Source of the DNA: Acidobacteriota bacterium
GTDB lineage: Bacteria; Acidobacteriota; Vicinamibacteria; Vicinamibacterales; JAFNAJ01
DNA: 64,000 nt
Assembly (NCBI GenBank): GCA_023384575.1
Contig: JAHDVP010000004.1
Location: 169,796-233,795 of the forward strand
Reading direction: 5' to 3'
Positions 44,997 to 60,272 of the stretch are shown in pieces. How positions within the stretch are numbered: position 1 is the first letter of the stretch; every line of letters begins with the position of its first letter. The notes below the pieces were generated by a model. That model worked only from the letters and a program-made list of their open reading frames with translations, was not told the DNA's origin and made no database searches. A program made the translations under genes and the position numbers.

Positions 44997-46730
44997 ATGC
45001 CAGACGCGTTCAGGCAAGGCACCCTCGTCGCCGGCCGCTACGAGATCCTCGGCCTGCTCGGGACCGGCGGGATGGGCGAGATCTACCGCGCCCGCCGCCT
45101 GCGCCTCGGCGACGAGGTGGCCATCAAGGTCATCCGGACGACGGGCGTCGACGACGAGGCGCTGCGCGACCGGTTCATGCGTGAGAGCCGGGCGTGCGCA
45201 CGCCTCCGCCACCCGCACATCGTCGCCATTCACGATTTCGACGTCGACGACGAGGGACGGCCGTTCCTGGTGATGGAGTTGCTGAACGGGCCGAGCGTGC
45301 GCGAGGAGCTCGCGCAGTCGGGGCGGTTCGACCTGGCGCGCCTGCAGAAGATCCTGCCCGGGTTGTGCAGCGCGCTGCAGCTCGCCCACGACAACGGCAT
45401 CGTCCATCGCGACCTGAAGCCGGCCAACATCGTGAGTCATCGCTACGAGTCGGGCGAGCTCGTCTACAAGATCATCGACTTCGGCCTGGCGAACGTTCGC
45501 GCGGCCGCGGACGAGACCCGGCTCACGACCGAGCGGCAGTTCCTCGGCACGGTGACCTACGCCTCGCCCGAGCAGCTCCGGGGGCAGGCCGTCGACCAGC
45601 GCTCCGACGTTTACAGCGCCGGGGCGGTGGTCTACGAGATGATCACCGGGCGCGCGGTCTTCGACGCCGCCGACTCGCTCGCGGCGGCGACGCAGCACCT
45701 GATGGCATCGCCCGAGCCGCCGTCGCGATTCAGGACCGACCTGCCCGGCTGGGTCGATGCCGTCGTGCTGAGGGCGCTGGCCAAGGAGCCGGACGACCGC
45801 TGGCCGCGTATCGAGGACTTCGGGCTCGCCATGCAGGGGGAGGTGGCGCACGATGCGCCCACCGGCCTCGGCCACGTCCGGACTCCGGCGCTGTCGGGCA
45901 TGCTCGGGAAGTACGACCTCGGACTCCTGATCGGCCGCGGCCGGTTCGGGAGCGAAGTGTACGCCGCACGGCACCGTGCGCTCGGCCACCCGGTGGCCGT
46001 GCGCACGCTGCATCGCCGGGCACACCCCACCTGGGACGCCGCCCGCGACCGCTTCCTTCGTGAGGCGCAGGCGCTGCAGGTGTGGCACCCGTCGATCATC
46101 CAGGTGCGCGATTACGGCGAAGAGCGCGACGTCGTCTACGTCGTCACCGAGCTGCTCGAGGGCGTCAGCCTGCGCGAGCTGCTGGCGCGCGAGGGCGCGC
46201 TGCCGTGGCCGCGCGTTGCGCCGCTCGCCGACCAGCTGCTCGACGCCATCGAGGCCATGCATCGGCGGGGCGGGACCGTGTGCGGCCTCAGCCCCGAGAT
46301 CATCCGCATGACGCGCGACGACGCGGGCGAGCGCCTCATGATCTCGTCGGCGGGCATCGTGCAGGTGCAGGACCTGCTCGGCACACTCTCGCTCGAGACG
46401 CTGCGCGGCGGCGAGCGTGCCGACCCCGAGTTGCCCTACGTCGCGCCGGAGGTCTTCATGGGGCGAGCACCCGATATGGTGGCCGACGTGTTCACCATCG
46501 GCGTGCTCCTCTACGAGATGGCGACAGGCCGCGTGCCGTTCGAGGGCCGGACCCTGCCGTCGCTGCTCGGGGCCGCGATGGGGCCTCCGCCCCCGCCGGC
46601 GCACGACATGGCCCCGGGTGTCCCGCCCGCCGTTTCGGACGTGGTGGCGCGGTGCCTGGTGGCCGACCCCGCCGCGCGCCTCGCCCCGGTCGCCGAGGTG
46701 CGCCGCCGCCTGTCGGACGCGACCCGGTGA
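44997..46730 (+). CDS. tandem kinase-pseudokinase (Hanks-type Ser/Thr kinase)
   Basis: A 577-residue soluble protein with two kinase folds. Domain 1 (residues ~14-290) is complete: glycine loop LGTGGMGEIY, K44 in VAIKV, catalytic loop HRDLKPAN (137-144), DFGLA (161-165) and APE-like YASPEQL. Domain 2 (~310-570) keeps the fold but has lost catalysis: the VAIK lysine reads VAVRTL, the HRD loop reads GGTVCGLSPE and the DFG position reads ISSAGI. There is no transmembrane segment and no PASTA repeats. The second domain probably regulates the first. It ends 29 bp from the convergent HprK-like gene. Confidence 0.88.
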   Translation: MPDAFRQGTLVAGRYEILGLLGTGGMGEIYRARRLRLGDEVAIKVIRTTGVDDEALRDRFMRESRACARLRHPHIVAIHDFDVDDEGRPFLVMELLNGPSVREELAQSGRFDLARLQKILPGLCSALQLAHDNGIVHRDLKPANIVSHRYESGELVYKIIDFGLANVRAAADETRLTTERQFLGTVTYASPEQLRGQAVDQRSDVYSAGAVVYEMITGRAVFDAADSLAAATQHLMASPEPPSRFRTDLPGWVDAVVLRALAKEPDDRWPRIEDFGLAMQGEVAHDAPTGLGHVRTPALSGMLGKYDLGLLIGRGRFGSEVYAARHRALGHPVAVRTLHRRAHPTWDAARDRFLREAQALQVWHPSIIQVRDYGEERDVVYVVTELLEGVSLRELLAREGALPWPRVAPLADQLLDAIEAMHRRGGTVCGLSPEIIRMTRDDAGERLMISSAGIVQVQDLLGTLSLETLRGGERADPELPYVAPEVFMGRAPDMVADVFTIGVLLYEMATGRVPFEGRTLPSLLGAAMGPPPPPAHDMAPGVPPAVSDVVARCLVADPAARLAPVAEVRRRLSDATR

Positions 46731-46759: not shown

Positions 46760-47653
46760 CTACGATGACGAGAGGGCCTGGAGGATGACGGCGGTGACCG
46801 CGTCGAGGGCCGAGAGCGCGCGGGGACGCCGCAGCGTGTACACGGGGACCCGCGCGGCCACTCGAGCGCACGCCTTCAGGTGATCCGCGGCGGCGGCCCG
46901 CTGCGCGAGCCGGGCGACGTAGCTGTAGCGGAGCACGTCGAGCGGCACCGACTGTCCGTGCCGCCGCGTGGCCGACAGCGCGTCGGCGTCCTCGATCACG
47001 AACAGCGCGTGAAACGGCAGGGGCGCCGCCGCGAAGTCCGCGCCGAACCCGAGGAGCGCCTTGCCTCGGTCGCCTTCGTCGAGCCGCGCGAGCGTGGGGC
47101 GGTCGTCTGGGGCCACCGTCGCCGCCGCCGCGTCGAGGCGCAGCGCCGGGTAGGCCGGCCGAACGAGCGGCGTCTCGCCCCGCCACTCGACGCACACGAT
47201 GTCGTCGGCGACGAGCGCGGCCCCGCGTGCGACGCAGGCGGCGGCCAGCGTCGACTTGCCGGCGCCAGACTGGCCCGCGAACGCCACCACGCGCCCGTCG
47301 AACGCCACTGCGCTCGCGTGCAGCACGACGTGGCCGCGCTGGAAGAGCACGATCGCCAGCGCCTGGCCGATGAGGGCCGCTCCGAGCCCTGTGGCCGCGC
47401 CCCGCAGACCTCGCACCTCGATGGTTCGGCCGCCGGCAATGGTCGCCACGCCGAGGCCCGGCCAGACGAGCCGGACGCGCTGCGCGTCGGCCGATGCCGC
47501 GTCGTTGATGCCGTCGAGACCGCGCGCCCCGTCGAGGTCGACCACCACGATGTCGAGGTCGACGTCCGCACGCGGCCGAGCCGTTGTCAGACCGGGCAGG
47601 GGCATCGACGATCGAAGGGTGAGGCCGTACGCGCGATAGAAGTGGCCGTTCAT
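46760..47653 (-). CDS. HprK-like kinase associated with lasso-type RiPP loci
   Basis: A 297-residue P-loop protein. Walker A is FAGQSGAGKST (G127-S134), preceded by VVLHASAV (110-117), a hallmark of HPr-kinase-like proteins found in RiPP clusters. Conserved Asp150-Asp151 in VADDIVCVEW match the catalytic aspartate region of HprK. There is no HprK N-terminal domain or HPr substrate nearby. In paeninodin-type lasso clusters such kinases phosphorylate a C-terminal serine of the precursor, and the precursors at 53481-53893 have serine-rich C-termini. Divergent from the PqqD-like gene. Confidence 0.82.
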   Translation of the reverse strand: MNGHFYRAYGLTLRSSMPLPGLTTARPRADVDLDIVVVDLDGARGLDGINDAASADAQRVRLVWPGLGVATIAGGRTIEVRGLRGAATGLGAALIGQALAIVLFQRGHVVLHASAVAFDGRVVAFAGQSGAGKSTLAAACVARGAALVADDIVCVEWRGETPLVRPAYPALRLDAAAATVAPDDRPTLARLDEGDRGKALLGFGADFAAAPLPFHALFVIEDADALSATRRHGQSVPLDVLRYSYVARLAQRAAAADHLKACARVAARVPVYTLRRPRALSALDAVTAVILQALSSS

Positions 47654-47801
47654 TCCGCCGTTCCGTCCTCATGATGCCGTGCTCGCGGGTGCTTCGCCAA
47701 ATCCGCGGCGTCGCCGGTGCGCCTCTCGTCGGCACGGAGCAGGCGCACGAGACACGGAGGGCATGGACACGGCCGGTGCCATTGCCTACCATGGTCCGGA
47801 C

Positions 47802-48113
47802 ATGTCTGCAGACCCGAGCGTCTTCACGCCCGACACCGTCGTCGTCGCGGCAGCTGGACCCGTCGCCTGCGAAGTCGACGGCGCGTACGTCATCCTCGAA
47901 CCCGCGGCCGGACGGTACTTCGGCACCGAGAAGGTGGGCGCGTCGATCTGGCGGATGCTCGAGGTCCCGGTGTCGGTCGACAGCATCTGCCGGCGCCTCG
48001 TCGAACAGTACGACGTGCAGCCAGGGCGCTGCGAGGCCGACGTCCGAACCTACCTCGCCACGCTGCACGCCCAGGGACTGCTCGAGATCTGCGCCAGCCC
48101 CGCGGAGCGCTGA
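47802..48113 (+). CDS. PqqD-like RiPP recognition element protein (lasso B1 type)
   Basis: A 103-residue PqqD-fold protein that normally binds a RiPP leader peptide and delivers it to modifying enzymes. The winged-helix pattern is clear: DTVVVAAAGPVACEVDGAYV, ILEPAAGRYFGTEKVGASIW, then SICRRLVEQYDVQPG and a C-terminal helix TYLATLHAQGLLE. An in-frame ATG at 47763 has a ribosome site but would be only 2 nt away from it. I prefer 47802 because sequence upstream is unlike the family. The TGA overlaps the next ATG as TGATG. Confidence 0.85.
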   Translation: MSADPSVFTPDTVVVAAAGPVACEVDGAYVILEPAAGRYFGTEKVGASIWRMLEVPVSVDSICRRLVEQYDVQPGRCEADVRTYLATLHAQGLLEICASPAER

Positions 48114-48535
48114 TGCGGCGAATCCTCGGTGCGGCCTCGCTCGCGCGTGCCCTGCTGGTGGTCTTCGCCGTGCGCCTGGCCCTGATCGTGTGGCCCTTCG
48201 CAAGCGTCCACGAACTGGTCGACCGGAAGTCGCGTCCGCGCACGGGCGCGTCGCCTGCGTCCAGGACGCCGGCACGCGTCGTCGCCGGCCGTGTCGACCG
48301 CGTCGCACGGTTCGTCCCGGGCGCCACGTGCCTCGTGCGATCGCTTGCCGCCCGACTCCTCCTCGGATGGGCAGGCCACGAGTCTCGGCTGCGGATCGGG
48401 GTCGCTCGCCCCGGGCAGGCTGGTCTCGAGGCCCATGCCTGGGTGGAGTGCGACGGTGTCACGGTGCTCGGCGCGACCACCGACACCCACTTCACCCCGC
48501 TGCCCGATCTTCCGCCTCGCTCCAGGGCGTCATGA
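48113..48535 (+). CDS. lasso-peptide B2-type transglutaminase-fold leader protease
   Basis: A 140-residue transglutaminase-like cysteine protease that in lasso pathways removes the leader peptide. The Cys-His pair is GATCLVRSLAARLLL (Cys73) and EAHAWVECDGV (His108), with an acidic residue in the following strand (D114 or D124) as third member. The N-terminus is a hydrophobic helix (ALLVVFAVRLALIVWPF, ~13-29), so membrane association is possible. ATG 48113 shares a base with the PqqD-like stop, indicating translational coupling. Confidence 0.85.
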   Translation: MRRILGAASLARALLVVFAVRLALIVWPFASVHELVDRKSRPRTGASPASRTPARVVAGRVDRVARFVPGATCLVRSLAARLLLGWAGHESRLRIGVARPGQAGLEAHAWVECDGVTVLGATTDTHFTPLPDLPPRSRAS

Positions 48536-49710
48536 GCCGAGAGGTCGCGCTCCTGGCGGCGGTCGCGCGGGCTCACTCGGGCGGTGGGACCGATCGCCTC
48601 CGCCAGGCGGTGGCCGGCATCGAGGCCTGGGCACCGGTGCTTCGACTGGCGGCCGTTCACGGCGTGATGCCGCTCACCGCCTCGACGCTGCTCCAATGGG
48701 CCGGTGACGTCCTGCCGCCGCCCGTGGCCGTCGACCTGCGCGACCGCGTGCGCGACAACGCTCGCCGCATGCTCGGGCTTTCGGCGGAGCTTCGGCGGAT
48801 TCGCGATGCCTTCGACCGATCGGGCCTGCGGGTCCTGGCGTTCAAGGGACCCACGCTGGCGATGCTGGCCTACGGGAACGTGGCGTTGCGCCGATCGCGA
48901 GACCTGGACCTGCTCGTCGAGCCGGGTTCGCTCCCGCGTGCCCACGACCTCGTCGCCGACCTGGGGTATGGGATCGCCGACCCGCTGACGTCGCTTGCTG
49001 GCGCCGACCTCCGGCAGTACCTGCGGTCGTCGCACCAGGCCGAGTACGTCAACACCGCGTTGGCGATGCGCATCGACGTGCAGACCGCGCTTGCGCCTCC
49101 GTTTCTTCCCTCACCGGACTTCGACCAGCTCTGGGACCGACGCACGCTGGTGGCACTGCCGGGAGGAGCGGTCGACGCGATCGGGCCCGCCGACCTCCTG
49201 CCCGCGCTCTGCCAGCACGGGCTGCGTCACGGGTGGGAACGCTTCCAGTGGGTCGTCGACGTCGCGTTGCTCGCGGCTCGCTCACCCATCACGACGGGCG
49301 CCGAGAGGCTCGAGAACGGCTGGGCGGCGTCGCGCGCCGTCGCCCTCGGGCTGTCGCTCGCCGAGGAGACGACCGGCATCGACGGCGGCAGGACCGCCAC
49401 GCGCGTGGTGGCCGACGCCGGGGTGCGCCGCCTCACCCGGATCGCGGCCCGAGCGCTCTTCGAGGACGCCACCGTCAGACAGCGCGCGTGGACCAACTTC
49501 AGGCTCCAGTACGGCGCCCAGGAGCACTGGCGGGCGAAGGCGCGATACCTGCGGGCGCTCGCAGAGACACGCTCGAACGCCGATTGGGCGGCCTCGCCAT
49601 CGGCCGCTTCATCCTCTTCCCTCGTTTCCGCGCTCCAGCGAACGTGGCGTCTCGCCATCGACTACGGCGGCGGATGGTGGTCGCGCGGCTCGTCGAGGCG
49701 CCACACGTAG
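48532..49710 (+). CDS. nucleotidyltransferase of the PF14907 type, RiPP-associated
   Basis: A 392-residue protein. The nucleotidyltransferase core is at residues ~100-130: VLAFKGPTLAMLAYG followed by RSRDLDLLVE, whose D124-x-D126 pair is the metal-binding site. Downstream helices (QYLRSSHQAEYVNTALAMRIDVQTAL) match the uncharacterised nucleotidyltransferase family that recurs beside PqqD/B2/HprK genes. It may transfer a nucleotide to a peptide or protein. Start overlaps the B2 stop by 4 nt. Its last 49 nt overlap the convergent GT39-like gene. Confidence 0.8.
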   Translation: MSREVALLAAVARAHSGGGTDRLRQAVAGIEAWAPVLRLAAVHGVMPLTASTLLQWAGDVLPPPVAVDLRDRVRDNARRMLGLSAELRRIRDAFDRSGLRVLAFKGPTLAMLAYGNVALRRSRDLDLLVEPGSLPRAHDLVADLGYGIADPLTSLAGADLRQYLRSSHQAEYVNTALAMRIDVQTALAPPFLPSPDFDQLWDRRTLVALPGGAVDAIGPADLLPALCQHGLRHGWERFQWVVDVALLAARSPITTGAERLENGWAASRAVALGLSLAEETTGIDGGRTATRVVADAGVRRLTRIAARALFEDATVRQRAWTNFRLQYGAQEHWRAKARYLRALAETRSNADWAASPSAASSSSLVSALQRTWRLAIDYGGGWWSRGSSRRHT

Positions 49711-51431
49711 AAGCGCGACGTCCAGCGCGGGCCCCACCGGTCGCGACGCCACCAGAAGCGCACGAGGCCCCGCACATCGAGGGCCGAGGCCTGTCCCAGC
49801 CACCAACTGCCGGTGTGGTACAGCCCCTGCTGGCTCGTGTACCCGGGCAGGTCGGTGGGCGAGGCGCTCCCGGCGAGGACGAAGGGCGCGCGGGGTGGGT
49901 CCTCGACCTCCTCCACGTAGCTCACCTGGACGTCTCGCAGGTACCAGTGGAACGGCCACTGGTACGGCCGCTCGATCTCCGCCACCGGCTCGCCCGGTGC
50001 GGCCGTGGCCGATCGCTGGGCGATGGCGTCGACCACGAGGCGGACGTCGCCCGCGAACTCGACCTGCAGCATCGGCTCGCCGACGTTGTGGCGATTGAAC
50101 GTCAGCAGGGCCACCGTGCTCCAGGTCGCGATCGCCGAGCAGACGACGACGACCGTCGCAAGGATGCCCCGCCACGGACCGGTCGTCGCGTCCCACCAGC
50201 GTGTCAGCCGGATCGCCACCACGAGCAGCCACGGCACGACGACGTGGACGGCGAGCCAGGGCACCTTCTCTCCAGCATACGAGTAAAGCACCGTGACCAT
50301 CGATGCGACACACACCAGGTAGGCCTCGGTGTCGCGCCCCCTCGCCAGCAGTTCGCGCACGGCGCCGAGCACGAGTCCGGCGCCGAGCACGACGAAGGGC
50401 GCGTGCAGGCGATGGAGATGCGCGATCGCGCGCAGGGCCGCTTGCTGGTCCGGGTCGAGCCACAGCACGCCGAAGGCCGTCGCGGCGGCAGCGGCCACGG
50501 TCAGCCACAGCAGGCGCCGGCGGCGGACCGCGTCCTCGATCACCAACCCCAGGGCGCCAAGGAGGATCAGCGGTTCGTAGACGAGCAGCAGGACGCCGTA
50601 GTAGTGAAACGGCCCGCCGAGCCGCTCCTCCGCGTGCATCGCGGCCCAGTGCAGGACGGGATCGACCAGAGGCGCCGATGCCGTCCGCGCCAGCGCCGTG
50701 GCGAAACCACCCGCGTGGTCGACGTGGTACTGAAAGGTGGTCAGGTAAAGGGCGGCAAGGATGAAGGCTGCCAGCAGCCCCAGCCACCGCCAGCCGCGGA
50801 ACGCGCGCAGCGCGCTCCAGACGTCGCGACCGTCGACAGGCGAGTGCCGTGCGCGACACAGCATCCACGTCCCTGCAGCCGCCACGATGAACCAGATGTT
50901 CAGCTTCGTCGCGATCCCCAGCGACAGGGTGGCCGCGCCGAGGGCGACCACCCTCGACGTCGGGAACCGTCCGAGGGCGAGCGGCACCCACAGCAGCACG
51001 AGCGACCACAAGGCGACGAGCGCGTCGTGGTTGTTGAAGCGGGAGTAGAAGACGAGTGTGGGCGACGTGGCGGCCAGCGCGGCCGCCACGAGTGCGGGCG
51101 CCGGCCCGATGATCCGCCTGAACAGGGACACGAAGGCGAAGACGAGGACGACACCCGCCACGGCGCTCACGAGGCGCGCCTGCAGGTCGCCGGCACCGAA
51201 GAGGCCGAAGACGAGCGCCTCGAGGTGATAGAGCAGCGGTCCGTGGTACACGGGATCGGCGTGATAGCCGCGGCCCGAGAGGAGTTCCGCCGCGAACCAG
51301 GCGTGAACGGCCTCGTCATGGTGCATGAAGCGCCCGCCGAGGTTCCAGAACCTCGTCGCCAGCGCGGCGAGCCCCACGAGCGCGACGACCGCCCAGTACA
51401 CGCCGAACGATCCGAGTCGCACCGACTTCAT
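49662..51431 (-). CDS. GT39-like membrane glycosyltransferase (TIGR03663 type)
   Basis: A 589-residue protein with about a dozen helices. The N-terminal acidic pair HHDEAVHAWF (metal/donor site of GT-C enzymes) and YHGPLLYHLEALVF on the first periplasmic loop identify the GT39/PMT fold. The TIGR03663 group is known in archaea and Chloroflexi and usually neighbours a DUF2298 protein, as here. It presumably uses a lipid-linked sugar on a periplasmic acceptor. It starts at ATG 51431, overlapping the DUF2298 stop by 4 nt, so the pair is coupled. Confidence 0.82.
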   Translation of the reverse strand: MKSVRLGSFGVYWAVVALVGLAALATRFWNLGGRFMHHDEAVHAWFAAELLSGRGYHADPVYHGPLLYHLEALVFGLFGAGDLQARLVSAVAGVVLVFAFVSLFRRIIGPAPALVAAALAATSPTLVFYSRFNNHDALVALWSLVLLWVPLALGRFPTSRVVALGAATLSLGIATKLNIWFIVAAAGTWMLCRARHSPVDGRDVWSALRAFRGWRWLGLLAAFILAALYLTTFQYHVDHAGGFATALARTASAPLVDPVLHWAAMHAEERLGGPFHYYGVLLLVYEPLILLGALGLVIEDAVRRRRLLWLTVAAAAATAFGVLWLDPDQQAALRAIAHLHRLHAPFVVLGAGLVLGAVRELLARGRDTEAYLVCVASMVTVLYSYAGEKVPWLAVHVVVPWLLVVAIRLTRWWDATTGPWRGILATVVVVCSAIATWSTVALLTFNRHNVGEPMLQVEFAGDVRLVVDAIAQRSATAAPGEPVAEIERPYQWPFHWYLRDVQVSYVEEVEDPPRAPFVLAGSASPTDLPGYTSQQGLYHTGSWWLGQASALDVRGLVRFWWRRDRWGPRWTSRFYVWRLDEPRDHHPPP

Positions 51432-53404
51432 GGGGTGCGACCGTCCACGATCTCGTAGATCCGCATCGATCCCGACGCGAAAGCGAGCCGCCCGAAGCGT
51501 GGCCAGCGCGCTTCGTCGAGGCCGGGATACCTGGCGCGCTCCACCCCCCCGACGACCACGTAGCGGACCTCGTAGTGGCGGAGCGCCCGCCACGAGTCGT
51601 CGTCCGGGCCGAGGTAGATTCGGTCGATCGCCTCCTCGCGCTCGTGGAGCCGGCCCGTCCAGCGGGCGTGACTTCGCCACAGGCCCTGATGCCCGCGCCA
51701 TCCGAGGATGGTCGGCAGGCCGGTGTTCGCCGAGATGCGGCCGGCGAACCCGTAGCTGTCGCCCGTCGCCTCGACGATGACCGCTTGGCCCGTCGTCTGT
51801 GTTCGGAAGAAGGTCACCGCGTCGTAGACATCCGGGACGCGCTCGCGGAGGTAACGGTGCCCATCAAGCGTCGGCTGGCGCCAGCCGGCCCGGACCTGCG
51901 TCGCCACCCATACCGCCGGGAAGACCGCCTGGCCAGCAAGGCAGGCTCCCAGCACGAGCAGACCGGTCCTCCGCCGCCAGGGCCGGTCTGCCGAGAGCAC
52001 TCGCTGCCACGCGAGCGGGACGATCGGTGCGGCGCACAACACGGCGAGCCAGTGCAGCTTGAAGACCGTGTTCATCCGCTCGTTGGGCGGGCCGTACATG
52101 TCGTCGAGATGCACGATCTCGGGGATCGTCCACGCCATCAACGCGACCAACGCGAGTCCGACAGGGAACCCGAGGCGCCCGAGTGCAGCCGGTGCCCTCG
52201 TGCCGCCGTCACCCTCGGGCAACTGCCGGTCGACGACCCACCAGCCGAGCCAGAGGCACACCGGCACCAGCCAAGGGCCGGCGGAGAAGGCGAACGCCAC
52301 CGGTGACGACCGTTCGGTCGTCAACGCGAGGTCGAGCGGCGGCGCGACGAACGACGTCAGGAACGGAAGGGAGACGAGGACGGCGGCGGCGGCGATCGCC
52401 GCGGCCTCTGCAAGGCGCCGGGCGAGTGTCGTGTGCGTTCGCGCCGTGACCAGCAGCAGGCAGGCGCACAGGCCCGCGAGCGGCGGGGCGTCCCAGGGTG
52501 AGGTCGACGTCATGGCGCCCGCCACGACACCGAGGAGGACCGCCGTCGGCAGGTGCGAACGACCCGTACCGGTCAACCGCAGCAGGAGGGCCAGGAACGC
52601 GACGACGAGCGGCGCGTTCATCAGGTGAGGGTGCAGGTCGCCCCAGGTGAGCGAGAAGAACGGGAACTCGGTGATCGCCCCCTCGATAATCCGAGTGGCG
52701 CCGAAGAGGTCGGGATGACCGGCCCAGAAGCCCGCCTGGGCGAGGAGCGCGAAACTGCCTCCGAGAGCGATCAGCAGTGCACCGCCGGTCGCGAGGGCCA
52801 GCCGGCCCGTGAGCGCGAGGCCGAGTGAGAACGTCGCGCTCGCCAGTTGTGCGGCAATCGTGGCCAGTGCCAGGTTGTAGGCCACGGCCGGCACGGTGAC
52901 CAGCGCCTTCGCGACCAGCCCCCACGAGAAGTACCCGAAGTAGTAGTAGTTGACCGATTCGCCGGCGAACCACGGGTCGACCGGCGGAAACGCTTCGGCG
53001 CGCATGGCCGCGTTGAGCAGCGCGAAGTCCATCCACTTCTCGCCGCCCAGGATGTTGGGCGCCAGGCTACGGAGTGCAGCGAACGCGAGGAACGTGCCGA
53101 GGAAGATCGTCTCGGCCATGAGCACCGCGGGACGAGATGCGGTGCCAGCCTCAGCCGATCGCGCACGGCGAGACACCAACGCGATCGCGCAGGCCCCGGC
53201 GACGACCATCCACACGGTCGTCACCGAGATCGGCAGGCCGACGGCGGCCATCGTCCACACGATGGTGGCGAGCAGGAGCAGGCCGAGTGTCTTCGAGAGG
53301 CCGACGCCCCGGTCGGGGAGGACGGCGAGGGAGGGGCCGAAGAGACGGTCGAACAACCACGCGAGGCCGTTGACGAACAGCACCCACGTCGCGATGGTCA
53401 ACAC
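51428..53404 (-). CDS. DUF2298 (Chlor_Arch_YYY) polytopic membrane protein
   Basis: A 658-residue protein with about 14-16 helices. Signatures are GGEKWMDFALLNAAMR, DPWFAGESVNYYYFGYF (the YYY motif), EFPFFSLTWGDLHPHLMN and ERMNTVFKLHWL. Members are thought to be glycosyltransferases or transporters for surface glycans, paired with GT39-like proteins. Its ATG lies 76 bp downstream of precursor B (53481) on the same strand, so a shared transcript with the precursors is likely. Compare the fused relative at 56151. Confidence 0.85.
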   Translation of the reverse strand: MLTIATWVLFVNGLAWLFDRLFGPSLAVLPDRGVGLSKTLGLLLLATIVWTMAAVGLPISVTTVWMVVAGACAIALVSRRARSAEAGTASRPAVLMAETIFLGTFLAFAALRSLAPNILGGEKWMDFALLNAAMRAEAFPPVDPWFAGESVNYYYFGYFSWGLVAKALVTVPAVAYNLALATIAAQLASATFSLGLALTGRLALATGGALLIALGGSFALLAQAGFWAGHPDLFGATRIIEGAITEFPFFSLTWGDLHPHLMNAPLVVAFLALLLRLTGTGRSHLPTAVLLGVVAGAMTSTSPWDAPPLAGLCACLLLVTARTHTTLARRLAEAAAIAAAAVLVSLPFLTSFVAPPLDLALTTERSSPVAFAFSAGPWLVPVCLWLGWWVVDRQLPEGDGGTRAPAALGRLGFPVGLALVALMAWTIPEIVHLDDMYGPPNERMNTVFKLHWLAVLCAAPIVPLAWQRVLSADRPWRRRTGLLVLGACLAGQAVFPAVWVATQVRAGWRQPTLDGHRYLRERVPDVYDAVTFFRTQTTGQAVIVEATGDSYGFAGRISANTGLPTILGWRGHQGLWRSHARWTGRLHEREEAIDRIYLGPDDDSWRALRHYEVRYVVVGGVERARYPGLDEARWPRFGRLAFASGSMRIYEIVDGRTP

Positions 53405-53480
53405 GACGCCGCGCCGTTACCGGGCCGCGGGGGCGCGACCCTCCGGGCGCACGGGCGGGCTGCCGTGCGCGGGCGACCGA

Positions 53481-53669
53481 TCAGAGCTTCGTCGAGTCGA
53501 GCGTGGCGCTCGAGGACTCGATGTCTTCGAACGAATCGACGATCTGCGAGCCCGGCGTGGGCGGCGGTGTCGAAGTGGGCACCTGCTGACGGGTGAGGTC
53601 GACGATCGAGCCGTGGGCCTCGAGGACCGGCGGCGTGTAGGGCTGCCTGGAAGTGGAGAGTTTCGACAC
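53481..53669 (-). CDS. lasso-type RiPP precursor peptide B (62 aa)
   Basis: Starts at GTG 53669 with GAGG 6 nt upstream. The leader carries YTPPVLEAHGSIVDLT (residues 11-26), matching the lasso leader motif YxxPxLxxxGxxxxxT exactly. The C-terminal part is proline-rich (PTSTPPPTPGSQ) followed by VDSFEDIESSSATLDSTKL. That tail shares S-x-F-E-D-x-E-S-S with precursor A. The residues just after the leader threonine (RQQ) do not look like a standard lasso core. Second in the gene run. Confidence 0.72.
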   Translation of the reverse strand: MSKLSTSRQPYTPPVLEAHGSIVDLTRQQVPTSTPPPTPGSQIVDSFEDIESSSATLDSTKL

Positions 53670-53702
53670 AATCGTCCTCACGGAGTGTTGAACACAATGT
53701 TC

Positions 53703-53726
53703 GGCGAGCCCCAGCAGGCTCTCGCC
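53703..53726 (-). promoter_or_regulatory. hairpin between the two precursor genes
   Basis: GGCGAG (53703-53708) pairs with CTCGCC (53721-53726) around a 12-nt loop, 3 bp after the precursor A stop. It may attenuate or stabilise the precursor A message relative to downstream genes. There is no U-tract. Confidence 0.45.
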
Positions 53727-53728
53727 GT

Positions 53729-53893
53729 TCAGGCGTTCGACGACTCGAGGTCTTCGAAGTGGCTCACCAGCTCGGACGGCCCCGAGGCCGGTCGGACCTG
53801 CTGAGTCATCTCCACAATCGAACCATGGTCGTCGAGCGTGGGCGTGGTGTACGGCTGCCGCGGGGACTCCGCTACCGGGGAGCTGGTTTTCAT
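53729..53893 (-). CDS. lasso-type RiPP precursor peptide A (54 aa)
   Basis: Starts at ATG 53893, first gene of the leftward run. Residues 15-30 (YTTPTLDDHGSIVEMT) fit the YxxPxLxxxGxxxxxT leader motif exactly. The putative core QQVRPASGPSELVSHFEDLE is followed by SSNA. The C-terminal FEDLESS is shared with precursor B. No ribosome site is visible, consistent with the leaderless promoter found directly upstream. Confidence 0.75.
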   Translation of the reverse strand: MKTSSPVAESPRQPYTTPTLDDHGSIVEMTQQVRPASGPSELVSHFEDLESSNA

Positions 53894-54031: not shown

Positions 54032-55459
54032 ATGACCCGACTCCTCGACCCCGGACGCGTCCTCATCGTGGGCGGGGGACCCACCGGGCTCGGCGCCGCC
54101 TGGCGGCTCGACCACCATGGGTTCCGCGACTACGTCCTGCTGGAGGCCGAACATCATCCAGGTGGCCTGGCGGCCAGCGAGGTCGACGCGCGCGGGTTCG
54201 TGTGGGACGCCGGAGGGCACGTGCACTTCAGCCACTACGACCTGTACGACCAGGCCCTCGACGAGGCGCTTGGCGACGCGTGGTACTGGCACGAACGCGA
54301 CGCGTGGGTGTGGCTGAACGAGCGGTGGGTCCCGTACCCTTTCCAGCACCACGTCCACCATCTCGACCTGCGAGACCAGGCGCGGGTCCTCCAGGGCCTC
54401 GACCGGGCGCGCCTCGACACCGGCGAGACCCCACGCACCTTCGCGGCGTGGATCGACCGCACGTTCGGTGAAGGCCTGGCGGCGCTGTTCCTGCGTCCAT
54501 ACAACGAGAAAATCTGGCGACATCCCCTCGAGCGGATGTCGGTGGGCTGGCTTGGGGAGCGGGTGGCCGCACCCGATCCGGATGACCTGCGCGCGCGCAT
54601 CGCCGCGCGGCTGGATCGACGCGAGTGGGGGCCCAACCATCGCTTCCGCTATCCCGCGCGGGGGGGCACGGGTGCCATCTGGACCGGCCTCGCCGGGCGG
54701 CTCGACCCGACGCGCCTGCGATTCGGCGTGCCCGCCGGCCACGTCGACGTCGAGGCCCGGACGACGACCACGACCACCGACGAGTGCCTGCCGTGGGACA
54801 CGTTGATTTCGACGATCCCGCTCGACCGCTTTGTCGCCCGCGCGGCCGGGGTCGCGCCGGCAGCCCGCGCGGCGGCGCGGCACCTCGTGGCCAACAGCGT
54901 GTGCGCCGTTGGCATCGGCTTACGTGGTGGGCGGCCCGACGGGCTGTCGCGCAAGACCTGGATCTACTACCCCGAGCCCTCGAGCCCGTACTATCGCGTC
55001 ACGGTGCTCTCGAACTACTCACCCCACAACGTTCCCGAAGGCGACGGGTACTGGTCGCTGCTGACCGAGACGAGCCTGCCCCACGGGTCGACGCCCGACG
55101 TCGACGGCCTGATCGACTGGACGCTCCGCGCTCTCTCCCGGGATGCGCTCGTTTCCGACCCGGCCGAGGTGGTGTCGGTGTGGCACCGGCACCTGCCGTA
55201 TGGCTATCCCGTGCCGTCGCTCGGGCGCGACGAGGCCCTCGCGACGCTCCAGGCCGAGCTCGAGGCCTGCCGGGTCTTCTCGCGAGGCCGCTTCGGCGCC
55301 TGGAAGTACGAGGTGTCGAATCAGGACCACTGCTTCATGCAGGGGGTCGAGCTCGTCGACCGCCTGCTGCTCGGAGCGCCCGAGCCGACACTCAACGACC
55401 CGGACGCCGTCAACCGGGGCGACTACCGCCGCAGCCCGGCCGGTCCCGCGTCCGCTTGA
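54032..55459 (+). CDS. FAD-dependent oxidoreductase / UDP-galactopyranose mutase-like flavoprotein
   Basis: A 475-residue flavoprotein. The N-terminal dinucleotide motif VLIVGGGPTGLGAAWRL and ExxxxxGG (LEAEHHPGGLAAS) bind FAD. FLRPYNEKIWRHPLERMS and YPARGGTGAIWTGLAGRL resemble the protoporphyrinogen-oxidase/UDP-galactopyranose-mutase group, often found beside GT2 genes in surface-polysaccharide loci. The reaction is not established. Start ATG 54032 is the first codon of the FAD domain; TAGACT at 54012-54017 could be its -10. Divergent from precursor A. Confidence 0.8.
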   Translation: MTRLLDPGRVLIVGGGPTGLGAAWRLDHHGFRDYVLLEAEHHPGGLAASEVDARGFVWDAGGHVHFSHYDLYDQALDEALGDAWYWHERDAWVWLNERWVPYPFQHHVHHLDLRDQARVLQGLDRARLDTGETPRTFAAWIDRTFGEGLAALFLRPYNEKIWRHPLERMSVGWLGERVAAPDPDDLRARIAARLDRREWGPNHRFRYPARGGTGAIWTGLAGRLDPTRLRFGVPAGHVDVEARTTTTTTDECLPWDTLISTIPLDRFVARAAGVAPAARAAARHLVANSVCAVGIGLRGGRPDGLSRKTWIYYPEPSSPYYRVTVLSNYSPHNVPEGDGYWSLLTETSLPHGSTPDVDGLIDWTLRALSRDALVSDPAEVVSVWHRHLPYGYPVPSLGRDEALATLQAELEACRVFSRGRFGAWKYEVSNQDHCFMQGVELVDRLLLGAPEPTLNDPDAVNRGDYRRSPAGPASA

Positions 55460-55464
55460 GATCG

Positions 55465-56202
55465 ATGGGCGTCCCCGAGCTGTCGCTCGTCATCCCGGCC
55501 TGGAACGAGGCCGAGACCATCGCCGCGACCGTCGAGCGGTGGCGAGGCCTGTTCGCCACGCTGCCGCTCGCCCACGAGATCCTCATCGTCGACGACGGCT
55601 CGACCGACGGCACGGCAGGCGTCGTCGAACACGTGCCGAGCGCCAGCGGAACCGAGCTGCGTGTCGTCCGGCAGGACAACCGGGGGCACGGGGCGGCCGT
55701 CCGGCGCGGCTACGTCGAAGCGCGCGGGGCGTGGATCATGCAGATCGACGCCGACGACGAGGTCGGGCCCGAGCCATTCTCACGGATGTGGTCGCAACGC
55801 GGCCAGGCCGACCTCGTCCTCGGGTGCCGGACCGAGCGCCGACAGGCGTTCGTACGACGCGCGATCTCGCGTGGCGCGCGGCTCGTCGTCCGGTTGCTCT
55901 CCGGCGTCACGATCGACGACGTCAACGCGCCGTACCGGCTGGTGCGCCGCGAGGTCCTGACGCGGATGCTCGAGGCGATCCCGGACGGCACGGCGACACC
56001 GAACGTGGCCATGACCTGGCTCGCGTCGCGATGGGGGCTCCGAGTCGTTCAGATGCCCGTGCCGGTCGTCCGCGCCCGCGCCTCCGGATCGCTCGGGGGC
56101 TGGCGACTGCTGCGTACGGTGCTCGGCGGTCTGCGCGACGCATCGCGCGTCTACCTGGCCGCGCGCCGGGCGTCCGGGTCGACGAACCGGTCCACCGCGT
56201 AG
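55465..56202 (+). CDS. GT2 glycosyltransferase (polyprenyl-phosphate sugar synthase-like)
   Basis: A 245-residue GT-A fold enzyme. N-terminal LSLVIPAWNEAETIAATVERW, EILIVDDGSTDGT (nucleotide-binding aspartates) and IMQIDADDEVGPE (DxD-like metal site) are all present. The layout matches dolichol-phosphate-mannose-synthase-like proteins, which load a sugar on a lipid carrier for GT39-type enzymes. No C-terminal helix pair is evident. It follows the flavoprotein gene by 5 nt. Its last 52 nt overlap the convergent GT39-DUF2298 fusion gene. Confidence 0.85.
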   Translation: MGVPELSLVIPAWNEAETIAATVERWRGLFATLPLAHEILIVDDGSTDGTAGVVEHVPSASGTELRVVRQDNRGHGAAVRRGYVEARGAWIMQIDADDEVGPEPFSRMWSQRGQADLVLGCRTERRQAFVRRAISRGARLVVRLLSGVTIDDVNAPYRLVRREVLTRMLEAIPDGTATPNVAMTWLASRWGLRVVQMPVPVVRARASGSLGGWRLLRTVLGGLRDASRVYLAARRASGSTNRSTA

Positions 56203-59200
56203 ACCTCGGTCGTGCCCTGCTCGAACACCAGCCGCCACGGGCCGGCCGCCTGCCGGCTGAACTTCGCGAGACCCTCTTTCGTGTAGATTGCGCGCTCGAG
56301 GGCGCCGACGACGACGAACGCGACGCGGTGGCGCGCGAGCAGCCTGGCGGCCTCGTCGACATCGGTGCCGTCGTAGATGCGTCGGATGTCACGCGCGCGC
56401 CTCGCGATCACGACGCGCGGCAGCGCGGCGCGCTGCTGCCTCACGTGCCACTCCCACCCCATGAGCGTCGGCAGGCCGGTGTGCGCGCTGATCCGTCCGC
56501 CCCAACGGTACTGGGCCGTGCGCGCCTCGAGTACCGTCGGCGTCCCGCGCACGCGCTCCTTCAGCCATTCGATTGCCGCGAGGTCGTCCGCGAGGGCGAA
56601 GGTGACGCCCTGCTCCGTGTGCCGCGCCGTCCTCATGAAGGCCGCGCCGTCGAGCGTCCAGCCCGCTGCCGGCTCGAAGCGATCGCGCCAGCGCGCCGGC
56701 GTCGCCGTCAGGGGATAGATCAGCCCGCCGGCCCACACGGCCAGAACCACACCGAGCGCCCACCGCCGCCGGAGGAGACGCAGGGACTCGCCCGGCGCGT
56801 CGCGCGTGGGGCGCGCGAGCAGATCGGCAAGGGCCGCGCCCGAGGCGATCGACCAGAGCAGCCAGACGTGCACGTAGAACTTGAACACGGTGTTCATCCG
56901 GCCGACGTCACCCCGCAAGGCGACGACCTCGACGAGCAGTGTCAGCGCGAAGGCGAGGCCGGCGAGTCCGAGGGTGACGAGGCGGGCTCGGGCCCGAGGA
57001 GGGTCGAACAGGTCACTCCGGCGCAGGCGCTGCCAGAGCCAGGGCACCAGGACCACGAGGAAGAGGCCGTGCACGGCGACATAGGCCAGGGGCGTCGTGC
57101 GCGACCCGCGCCACACGGTCAGCGAGGTGTACGCGGCGCCGTACGAGAGGTGGAAGGGCAGGAAGAGCACGAGCGCCGCGCCGAGCACGGACACCGCGAC
57201 GACCAGTGCTCGCGCCGCCGCCGCCGGCCAGGCGGTCCAGGGTTCGCGCGAGATGCCGTGCGCCACGAGCCCGATGGCCACGAGGGCGGTGGCGGTGGGC
57301 GTGTCCCACGTGTTGATGGCCGCCGTGGCGCCGACGACGAGACACGCGAGCGCGAGGGCGGGCCATCGAGGGCCGGACCGCGAGAGGACGAGGGCCAGGC
57401 CGGCCGCCGCGACCACGAACGGCATGCCCATCATGTGCGCGTGCAGGTCGCCGAAGAGGAACGTGAAGAACGGGAACTCGGCGATGGGCGGCGCTTCCTC
57501 CGGCAGGTGGGGAATCGGGCGCGTGGCGCTCCAGTACCACTGTGAGAGGGTGACGCCCGTCGTGCCGTTCGACAGCCACGACCAGAGCGCGCGGCCCGCG
57601 AGCGGCACCTGCGCGAGATTGCCCGCGACGACGGCCAGACCGGCCGCGACGAGGCCGAACCACGCGGCCCGCCGTCGCGCGTGGGTGCCCCTTCCGGGCC
57701 GGACACACGAGACGAGCAGCGCCGCGACCCCGAAGACCGCCGTCGCGGTGAAGGCGTAGAAGGTCGCCACGGCGAGCGCGTAGGCGAGCGGCGTCGGCAC
57801 GGCCGCAAGCTTCACCAGTATCGCCACGAGCGTGAAGCCGAAGTAGTAGTAGTTCAGTACTCCCCCAGCGAACCAGGGGTCGTAGGGCGGGAACTGCTCC
57901 GTTCGGATGAGGGCGTTCAGCAGCGCGAGGTCCATCGGTTTCTCGCCGCCGGTGTAGGGGTGCCACAAGTCAGGGTTGCCGGCGCGCAGCACGAGCGCCG
58001 CCCCGAAGGCTCCCCAGAAGATCGCCGCCTGCCATGCGAACGTGGATCGCGTGCATCGCGCCAGTCGTCGAAGCCGACGTCTCGCCGCCGTGGTGGCCGC
58101 GCAGGCGAACGCGGCGAGCGCCAGTGCCACGAGCGACCAGCGCACGCCCGCGGGCGTGAAGCCGACCACGCCGAGGTTCGTGCCGAGCCACGCGAACCAG
58201 CCAACGAGCAGGAGACCCACCGGCCTTGCCAGTGCGGCAGCGAACCCGCGGGTGCGCGGCACCGCCAGGGCGATGAGCGGCCACGCCAGCCAGCCGAGGC
58301 CCTCGACGAGGACGATCCAGCGGACCACGCGCCAGCCAGTGGAGCCGTCCGTGGCGAACAGGCCCCGATCGGGATCGATCGTCCTGGACCAGGTACCGCC
58401 CGTCTCGATCGACCTCCGCGCCTCGGCGCCGAGGGCGAGCCCTCGCGGCAGTCGCGCGACGTCGCGCGCCGGTGTCGGCACGAGGGCGTCCCACTCGATG
58501 TCGCCGAACACGGTCTCCCCGCGGTCGCGCGTCCACGACGACTTCCGGTAGATCCGAACGCGCGGGTGGTCGTAGACCGTGAAGGCCTCCTCGGCCTCGA
58601 GATCGTCGATGCGGATCGGCCCGAGCGAGGGCACCGACCGGAACTCCGCGGCCAGCTCGAACCCGAGCTCGCCCGACGCCAGCGCCCGGTAGTAGCGGAA
58701 CATGAGCGGGAACCGCTCGGGCAGGCGCGGGAGCGTCGACGCGTGGCGGTCGCTCGACAGCACGACGATGTCGGCGGCCTCCAGCAGATCGATGAGGAGA
58801 TCGCGCTTCTCCGGGGTATCTGGCGCGGCCGATTCGACGACCAGCACGCGGTAGTCGTCCTGCGGCCGCGTCGGGCGCACGCGAAGCGGCAGGCCGTCGT
58901 CCCAGTGCTCGTTCACGATCGTCGCCGGCGGCGGCACCTGGCGGTAGATCCACGCCGACGCCGCGATGCGCGGGTGGAGGTGCCGGTAGATCGAGGTGAA
59001 CGCGACCGCCCACGAGACCGTCGAGAGGCCCACGCCGGCGAGCAGCACCCAGGCCAGCCCACGATGCCACCGCGCGGACCGAGCGGCGGCCCAGTCGACC
59101 TGCCGCACGAGCGCCGCCGCCGCGAGCAGGGCGAGCATCGGGACGATGGGCAGGAAGTAGCGCAGCGTGTGGACGAACGCCGTGCCGTGCACGGAGATCA

Positions 59201-60272
59201 CGACCGCGATCCAGGCGAGCGGGGCGAGCCAGCGCGCGTCGCCCTCGACGACGAGACGGCGGCCGGCCCAGGCGACGCCGGCCCATGCGGCAAGGCCGAG
59301 CGGCAGGCCGAGTCCCCACGCGGTCAGGTTCCACAACGCGTTCAGGAGTGGGACGCGCCCGGCCCACTGGAGCGAGGGAGGCACTTCGATCGCCCCTGAG
59401 GTCAGTTGCCGCACCTGCTGCAGGTCGGCGAGCCATCGAGGGGCCGGCCATGGCCACCAGCCGGCCACGAAGGCATCGGGCATCGCCACCCGGACCGCCA
59501 CGAGGGCGGCCAGCGCCGCGATGGCCGGCGCCAGCGCCAGCGTGCGCGTGTCGTCGCCGCTCGTGCGCTCCCGGCCGCGCCGCGCAACCAGGGTGTGCCA
59601 CGCGCGTTCGATCCACACCGCCGCCATCGGCACCGCGAGCAGGACCATCGGCAGCTTGCACGCGACCGCGAGGCCGAAGGCCGCTCCGGCGCCCGCCCAG
59701 GCGACGAGCGTCCCTCTGCCTCGGGTCGAGCGCACCACCATCAGCAGGACCAGCGTCATCGTGGCGGCCGTCGTCGCGAACGGGTCGACCACGAAGAAGT
59801 GCGCATGCTGGATCGGCAGCACCGCGAAGGCGTAGCACGCCGACGCCAGCCACACGACGCGCCGGTCTCTCGTCGTGAGCCACGCCGCGGCGGCGACGAG
59901 CAGGAGCGTGAGCAGATCGGTCGACGCGCTCAGCACGCGACCGATCAACGCGAGCGATCTCGGCGAGTCGCGGCCGGACGCGGTCCCAACCGCCTTGAGG
60001 GCGGTGAGCGGCAGCGTGCCGTACACGAAGGCCCCGTCCTGGACGTTGCGCGGGTTCAGCGGCGAACGCGATTCGTCGAGGTACTCGCGCCAGGAGGCGG
60101 GCCAGTCGAGCGCCGCGACCGTCATTGCCAGGAAGCGCTCGTCCGGGTGGAGCAGCGCGCCCCGGTCCCAGCGGAGACCGTCGACGCGCAGCCACGCGCC
60201 GGTCACGAGCACGAGGCCGAGCAGCCCCGCGAAGGTCGCGATGCGTCCGGATCGGTGCCGGGGACGTGTCAT
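56151..60272 (-). CDS. single-chain GT39-like / DUF2298 fusion protein
   Basis: A 1373-residue membrane protein. The first ~640 residues are GT39-like (LLHPDERFLAMTVAALDWP acidic pair, then about nine helices and a periplasmic segment). From ~770 the chain contains the DUF2298 signatures GGEKPMDLALLNALIR, DPWFAGGVLNYYYFGF, EFPFFTFLFGDLHAHMMG and RMNTVFKFYVHVW. So the two proteins encoded separately at 49662-53404 are joined here. The frame is open to 62099, but ATG 60272, overlapping the GT4 stop as TGATG, begins a membrane-type N-terminus. Confidence 0.85.
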   Translation of the reverse strand: MTRPRHRSGRIATFAGLLGLVLVTGAWLRVDGLRWDRGALLHPDERFLAMTVAALDWPASWREYLDESRSPLNPRNVQDGAFVYGTLPLTALKAVGTASGRDSPRSLALIGRVLSASTDLLTLLLVAAAAWLTTRDRRVVWLASACYAFAVLPIQHAHFFVVDPFATTAATMTLVLLMVVRSTRGRGTLVAWAGAGAAFGLAVACKLPMVLLAVPMAAVWIERAWHTLVARRGRERTSGDDTRTLALAPAIAALAALVAVRVAMPDAFVAGWWPWPAPRWLADLQQVRQLTSGAIEVPPSLQWAGRVPLLNALWNLTAWGLGLPLGLAAWAGVAWAGRRLVVEGDARWLAPLAWIAVVISVHGTAFVHTLRYFLPIVPMLALLAAAALVRQVDWAAARSARWHRGLAWVLLAGVGLSTVSWAVAFTSIYRHLHPRIAASAWIYRQVPPPATIVNEHWDDGLPLRVRPTRPQDDYRVLVVESAAPDTPEKRDLLIDLLEAADIVVLSSDRHASTLPRLPERFPLMFRYYRALASGELGFELAAEFRSVPSLGPIRIDDLEAEEAFTVYDHPRVRIYRKSSWTRDRGETVFGDIEWDALVPTPARDVARLPRGLALGAEARRSIETGGTWSRTIDPDRGLFATDGSTGWRVVRWIVLVEGLGWLAWPLIALAVPRTRGFAAALARPVGLLLVGWFAWLGTNLGVVGFTPAGVRWSLVALALAAFACAATTAARRRLRRLARCTRSTFAWQAAIFWGAFGAALVLRAGNPDLWHPYTGGEKPMDLALLNALIRTEQFPPYDPWFAGGVLNYYYFGFTLVAILVKLAAVPTPLAYALAVATFYAFTATAVFGVAALLVSCVRPGRGTHARRRAAWFGLVAAGLAVVAGNLAQVPLAGRALWSWLSNGTTGVTLSQWYWSATRPIPHLPEEAPPIAEFPFFTFLFGDLHAHMMGMPFVVAAAGLALVLSRSGPRWPALALACLVVGATAAINTWDTPTATALVAIGLVAHGISREPWTAWPAAAARALVVAVSVLGAALVLFLPFHLSYGAAYTSLTVWRGSRTTPLAYVAVHGLFLVVLVPWLWQRLRRSDLFDPPRARARLVTLGLAGLAFALTLLVEVVALRGDVGRMNTVFKFYVHVWLLWSIASGAALADLLARPTRDAPGESLRLLRRRWALGVVLAVWAGGLIYPLTATPARWRDRFEPAAGWTLDGAAFMRTARHTEQGVTFALADDLAAIEWLKERVRGTPTVLEARTAQYRWGGRISAHTGLPTLMGWEWHVRQQRAALPRVVIARRARDIRRIYDGTDVDEAARLLARHRVAFVVVGALERAIYTKEGLAKFSRQAAGPWRLVFEQGTTEVYAVDRFVDPDARRAAR

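Follow-up and report, generated by a model that had tools for sequence, protein, structure and literature searches.

Phosphorylated lasso peptides and linear polyphosphorylated peptides (LPP) are the closest described relatives of the system considered here. In the paeninodin and pseudomycoidin pathways, PadeK and PsmK phosphorylate the peptide, and PsmN is needed for the addition of a hexose to the phosphoserine; in the Bsf pathway, BsfK acts with B1 and B2. The cyclase-free LPP peptides, phosphorylated by LppK and leader-cleaved, carry the leader consensus YxxPxVLxHQxIxFETxxS and are, by their description, confined to Bacillota (Popov et al. 2026, PMC13381572). The window analysed here is a 64,000-base stretch of an Acidobacteriota genome (bases 169796-233795 of a 234,610-base contig; the 5.89-Mb draft assembly has 112 contigs and is rated 100% complete). 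It contains a locus for a ribosomally synthesized and post-translationally modified peptide (RiPP) with an HprK-like peptide kinase (K), a PqqD/B1 leader-recognition protein, a B2 leader peptidase, a PF14907 nucleotidyltransferase (N) and two precursors. This locus probably makes linear, decorated peptides and not lassos; on this reading the cyclase was independently lost from a phosphorylated-lasso pathway, and the system has persisted in three genera from two families.

The kinase gene (46760..47653, minus strand) is divergent from a plus-strand operon at 47802-49710, with overlapping stop and start codons, that encodes PqqD, the RiPP recognition element (RRE; 47802..48113), B2 (48113..48535) and the nucleotidyltransferase (48532..49710). 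The kinase matches Pfam Hpr_kinase_C at E 1.8e-7, slightly below the curated cut-off, and its P-loop is intact. PqqD matches PF05402 (4e-17) and, below the model cut-off, NCBIfam lasso_PqqD_Bac (1e-17); B2 matches NF033537 (4.6e-26, well above cut-off) and the nucleotidyltransferase PF14907 (3e-44). Precursor A (MKTSSPVAESPRQPYTTPTLDDHGSIVEMTQQVRPASGPSELVSHFEDLESSNA; 53729..53893, minus strand) and precursor B (MSKLSTSRQPYTPPVLEAHGSIVDLTRQQVPTSTPPPTPGSQIVDSFEDIESSSATLDSTKL; 53481..53669, minus strand, GTG start) both contain the lasso leader motif Y..P.L...G.....T exactly, precursor B scoring 18.3 bits against a cut-off of 19 for lasso_leader_L3. A sequence-only reading of this DNA had named the same enzymes and two precursors with perfect leaders, and profile matches and the motif bear it out. 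Adjoining the HprK gene, at 44997-46730, is a PknB-like Ser/Thr protein kinase gene with two kinase regions.

B2 was searched for in 60 relatives, in a sample of the phylum, in all 162 genomes of the order Vicinamibacterales and in a genome collection, which yielded more than 100 loci. The two B2 proteins closest to that of the window come from a genome of the same order (G046) and one of the same family (G001). In both, a precursor-kinase pair is divergent from PqqD, B2 and N, with no cyclase gene (C); the prediction that these four enzymes recur without C thus holds in the two nearest homologous loci. A B2-only tree left the phylogeny unresolved, whereas a concatenated four-protein tree united window, G046 and G001 in one clade with support of 100/97. 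With its members only about 33% identical, the set must be old and maintained. A PknB-like gene also precedes the G046 locus, L027.

No match to PF00733, the asparagine-synthetase-like domain, was found on the window's 234.6-kb contig, in agreement with what the sequence-only reading said of the window, and nothing in the genome came near the cut-off of the NCBIfam lasso cyclase model. Only two full-length PF00733 proteins are encoded in the genome (contigs C34 and C93); both start MCGIAG and group with AsnB. The Cys2 that they keep is catalytic in glutamine-dependent asparagine synthetases and is, as a rule, absent from lasso C proteins. Contigs C1 and C5 gave weak PF00733 matches, which were rejected as other ATP-pyrophosphatase-type enzymes (LarE-like and GuaA-like by sequence) or noise. 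In a tree that took in lasso C proteins from Acidobacteriota and other phyla, the asparagine-synthetase-like proteins of all three genomes fall outside the group of 29 lasso C proteins (SH-aLRT 98). The 128-kb contig carrying the G046 locus has zero PF00733 matches. For G001 the absence rests on a genome-wide search, because both of its loci lie on short contigs.

Among PqqD+B2 loci flanked on each side by 6 kb or more, C is present in 43 of 50. Twenty-two of these loci also have K and N, and in 19 of them C lies within 9 kb. One more, L104, was considered as a further cyclase-less locus and rejected, as it has its C gene about 10 kb away, together with a lasso precursor of the ordinary kind; the cyclase-less K+N loci with long flanks are the window and L027 only. 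No C gene is seen on the sequence present at L105, L108 and L125, whose contigs end too near the genes to judge. The plasmids with nucleotidyltransferase matches (Priestia, Paenibacillus, Gemmatirosa) yielded a single lasso locus, paeninodin-like and with C, and zero LPP loci. The survey also brought up contig C96 of genome G445, where two lasso cyclase-like genes (L267 and L268) are about 20 kb apart with a PqqD-B2 pair between them. On contig C49 of the genome (L046, 9103-13348), a second PqqD with a long tail, FDKYNDLQELLLADPIHEVGEGGWP, sits beside an HprK-like kinase, two GT2 genes and a second PF14907 nucleotidyltransferase; neither B2 nor cyclase is present there, and the long tail is a possible peptide substrate in its own right.

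The precursors differ from those of lasso pathways in their cores. A precursor profile with precursor A as one row was searched against the three cyclase-less genomes and found two further precursors, in G046 (E 4.6e-10) and G001 (2.2e-7), the next best match being at 0.5. The two window and four sister precursors share the leader YxxPx[L/V]xxxGxxxxxT, with V for L in one, and each of the three genomes has two. With the core start placed by the leader Thr and numbering begun at the second residue after it, neither window core has Gly at position 1 or Asp/Glu at positions 7-9, as the sequence-only reading had observed. The rows in the following counts are not independent because of relatedness: a ring acid at positions 7-9 occurs in 1 of 6 clade precursors against 52 of 56 in C-containing loci (p = 1e-4), Pro within six residues of the leader Thr in 6/6 against 7/56 (p = 3e-5), and His just before the leader Gly (position 9) in 4/6 against 1/56 lasso precursors (p 1e-4). 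Directly after the leader the cores are rich in Pro, Ser and Thr; they range from 10 to 36 residues, and five of the six precursors end, or nearly end, in an acidic-aromatic stretch (FEDLES, FEDIES, FDEF, FEEF, SEF).

These observations bear on the suggestion, also made in the sequence-only reading, that this is a true lasso pathway whose cyclase acts in trans, the C gene having been missed in the assembly or an asparagine-synthetase-like protein on another contig doing its work. The focal assembly is a draft in 112 contigs, Cys-less asparagine-synthetase-like genes occur elsewhere in G001 and G046, and L104 is a precedent for a C gene about 10 kb from B2. However, the focal genome's two candidates group with AsnB, the relatives' Cys-less proteins lie outside the lasso-C clade, the acid at 7-9 is absent from 5 of 6 cores, and a cyclase is absent from three independent assemblies. 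We therefore regard a cyclase in trans as unlikely; a ring, if there is one, might also be closed by a quite different enzyme. That the peptide is cut and decorated but not threaded, as the sequence-only reading had it, is the best-supported account, because the genome has no cyclase and the nearest homologues are without C.

A second line of evidence, and a new finding relative to that reading, is the link between precursors and DUF2298. The coordinates given earlier for the core set stand; the functional neighbourhood, which extends to about 60 kb, and the membrane glycosyltransferase link had not been included. Precursor B lies upstream of a DUF2298 (Chlor_Arch_YYY) membrane protein gene (51428..53404, minus strand; PF10060 5e-82, TIGR03662 3e-126), from which it is separated by about 77 bases. 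The DUF2298 stop overlaps the likely start codon of an Agl23-like membrane glycosyltransferase gene (PMT_2; 49662..51431, minus strand; TIGR03663 1.6e-68, PF13231 1.7e-11). Divergent from the precursors is a PRK07208-like FAD/NAD-binding oxidoreductase gene (54032..55459, plus strand; NF005547 5.7e-40, below cut-off), followed by a GT2 glycosyltransferase (55465..56202, plus strand; PF00535 2.4e-22) and a second DUF2298 gene, encoding a large PMT + DUF2298 membrane protein (56151..60110, minus strand, start approximate; PF10060 1e-93, PF02366 5e-6).

In each of the three cyclase-less genomes a DUF2298 homologue has a precursor immediately upstream of it, and for the two new pairs, in G046 and G001, two separate genome-wide searches converged on the same places. 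Contig C40 of G046 carries the FAD oxidoreductase, GT2 and PqqD divergent from kinase, precursor, DUF2298 and Agl23; contig C477 of G001 carries the FAD oxidoreductase divergent from kinase, precursor and DUF2298, and then ends. The FAD oxidoreductase has 51% identical homologues at the equivalent place in both genomes, and GT2 has a homologue at its equivalent place in G046. DUF2298 scores above the cut-off in only 6 of the order's 162 genomes, and all three clade members are among the six (p = 3e-5). The RiPP genes appear to be an addition to a glycosyltransferase island, because three relatives have the island without them. These islands (L263, L264 and L265), rare in the order, comprise DUF2298, Agl23, GT2 and, in two, the FAD oxidoreductase. 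Joint transfer of the whole block would also create the precursor-DUF2298 linkage; the RiPP genes occupy an equivalent spot in three divergent genomes, and retention of the linkage at such divergence argues for a functional tie. DUF2298 is a membrane family without known function, and none of the papers in the literature collection searched ties it to RiPPs. An AlphaFold model of DUF2298, built from two sequences, reached a pLDDT of 38 and was not used.

The same linkage could mean that the peptides, instead of being secreted products, regulate the glycosyltransferase island or act as its carriers, with phosphorylation as a switch. The constant position directly upstream of DUF2298, the Pro/Ser/Thr-rich cores and the occurrence of LPP and paeninodin clusters in polysaccharide loci would suit such a role, but the leader peptidase and leader motif are retained, fitting a processed product, and we consider this explanation improbable.

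Retention of active sites speaks to a further possibility, that of a decaying lasso locus which has already lost its cyclase and is heading for loss. The kinase retains H112, G127, G130, G132, K133 (the P-loop Lys), S134, D150 and D151, a His-Gly-Gly-Gly-Lys-Ser-Asp-Asp motif, and the His-Lys-Asp-Asp motif, a requirement in paeninodin-type lasso kinases, is retained in all five kinase copies of the clade. B2 keeps Cys73, His108 and Asp114 of a Cys-His-Asp peptidase, and the nucleotidyltransferase keeps K105-G106, R120, D124 and D126 (Asp-x-Asp). The closest solved structures to PqqD are the lasso B1 proteins PbaB1 (E 1e-9) and TbiB1 (9e-8), with LppB (9x8z) at E 0.46; a sequence search of the Protein Data Bank gave no relative of B2 and none of precursor A. 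Because the catalytic residues of the kinase and B2, and most of those of the nucleotidyltransferase, are kept, the enzyme set does not look like decay. A missing key gene, the wide spread of core lengths and the absence of one conserved His from the window nucleotidyltransferase would be expected of a decaying locus, but kinase and B2 have intact catalytic residues and reading frames at about 33% identity in two families, all three genomes have two precursors, and the DUF2298 linkage is conserved. Decay is thus very unlikely.

The product is best read as a RiPP that is linear, phosphorylated, freed of its leader and probably glycosylated. By homology, PqqD/B1 would bind the YxxPxL part of the leader, and the HprK-like kinase would phosphorylate, perhaps polyphosphorylate, a core Ser or Thr, most likely in the Pro/Ser/Thr-rich stretch after the leader. 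B2, its catalytic residues intact, would then cut off the leader near the conserved Thr. No macrolactam is expected to form in the absence of both a cyclase and an acceptor acid in the core. Finally, the nucleotidyltransferase together with the linked DUF2298, Agl23 and GT2 proteins may add a sugar or sugar-phosphate, either at the membrane or once the peptide has been exported. We infer phosphorylation, leader binding, leader removal and the role of the nucleotidyltransferase in hexose addition from studied relatives; for DUF2298, Agl23 and GT2, conserved gene linkage is what suggests that they act on the peptide.

Several observations weigh against a linear, decorated product of a maintained pathway. 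The cyclase-less set occurs in three genomes only, all of them draft assemblies, and both G001 loci are on short contigs. Cys-less asparagine-synthetase-like proteins are encoded elsewhere in the sister genomes, on contig C51 of G046 and contig C227 of G001, with no PqqD or B2 beside them. The window nucleotidyltransferase has Gln184 where 95% of relatives have His, and the conserved Ser at core position 3, a feature of LPP and Bsf peptides, is not seen in the clade cores. The other three DUF2298 genomes have most of the island and no precursor, kinase or PqqD, and glycosylation by the island is deduced from gene neighbourhood alone. As for C227, the Cys-less genes there are two in tandem (MSDLFG and MSGLFG; L208, 430-4337) beside an acyltransferase-like gene, and lie outside the lasso-C clade.

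The linear-product reading suggests that what has been selected in the cyclase-less branch is the phosphate (and sugar), not the knot, and it provides DUF2298 with its first candidate substrate, the small peptide whose gene immediately precedes that of DUF2298 in three genomes. More tentatively, and with less than even confidence, we propose a new RiPP family whose linear peptides, phosphorylated and freed of their leader, are substrates or acceptors of the DUF2298/Agl23 membrane glycosyltransferase system, giving peptide-phosphate-glycan conjugates at the cell surface; such a family would descend from phosphorylated lasso peptides that lost the cyclase, separately from the LPP of Bacillota.

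Among known systems, the locus resembles LPP in having a discrete RRE, an HprK-like kinase, an NTP-transferase and no macrolactam cyclase, in its YxxP leader with His at position 9 (four of six precursors) and Thr at motif position 16, and in its setting among glycosyltransferase genes. LPP loci, however, have the SpI-type signal-peptidase-like LppS and an MsbA-like exporter, neither of which is found among the larger genes between 43 and 60 kb; the window has B2, a lasso-B1-like PqqD, an acidobacterial host and precursors tied to DUF2298. Because peptidase, exporter, host phylum and, judged by its structure matches, recognition protein differ, it is not filed as LPP, and descent from LPP by a move from Bacillota to Acidobacteriota, which the common kinase, RRE and nucleotidyltransferase logic and a leader in register with the LPP consensus might favour, is the most improbable of the alternatives, given B2 in place of the SpI-type peptidase and MsbA-like transporter and a PqqD far closer to lasso B1 than to LppB. 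The idea of a distinct RiPP class accordingly survives as a cyclase-free system, but not as a wholly new class, LPP being the precedent. With the phosphorylated lassos paeninodin, pseudomycoidin and Bsf, the locus shares the His-Lys-Asp-Asp kinase, a PF14907-like N, B1 and B2, and the leader motif; those pathways have the C cyclase and cores that form a ring between the N-terminal residue and Asp/Glu, and the window has neither. Leader, B1 and B2 are thus those of a lasso pathway, but because cyclase and ring-acid core are lacking, it is not filed as lasso. Islands of DUF2298 (TIGR03662), Agl23 (TIGR03663), GT2 and FAD oxidoreductase occur in genomes of the order, but RiPP precursors are inserted only in the three cyclase-less genomes, with the kinase in two and PqqD in one. 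Judged by these sequence features, the window system is a variant of the phosphorylated lasso pathways that became cyclase-free independently, neither an LPP member nor a lasso peptide, and it marks a second, apparently independent route from lasso to cyclase-free phosphopeptide, taken in another phylum and with an ordinary B2 protease.

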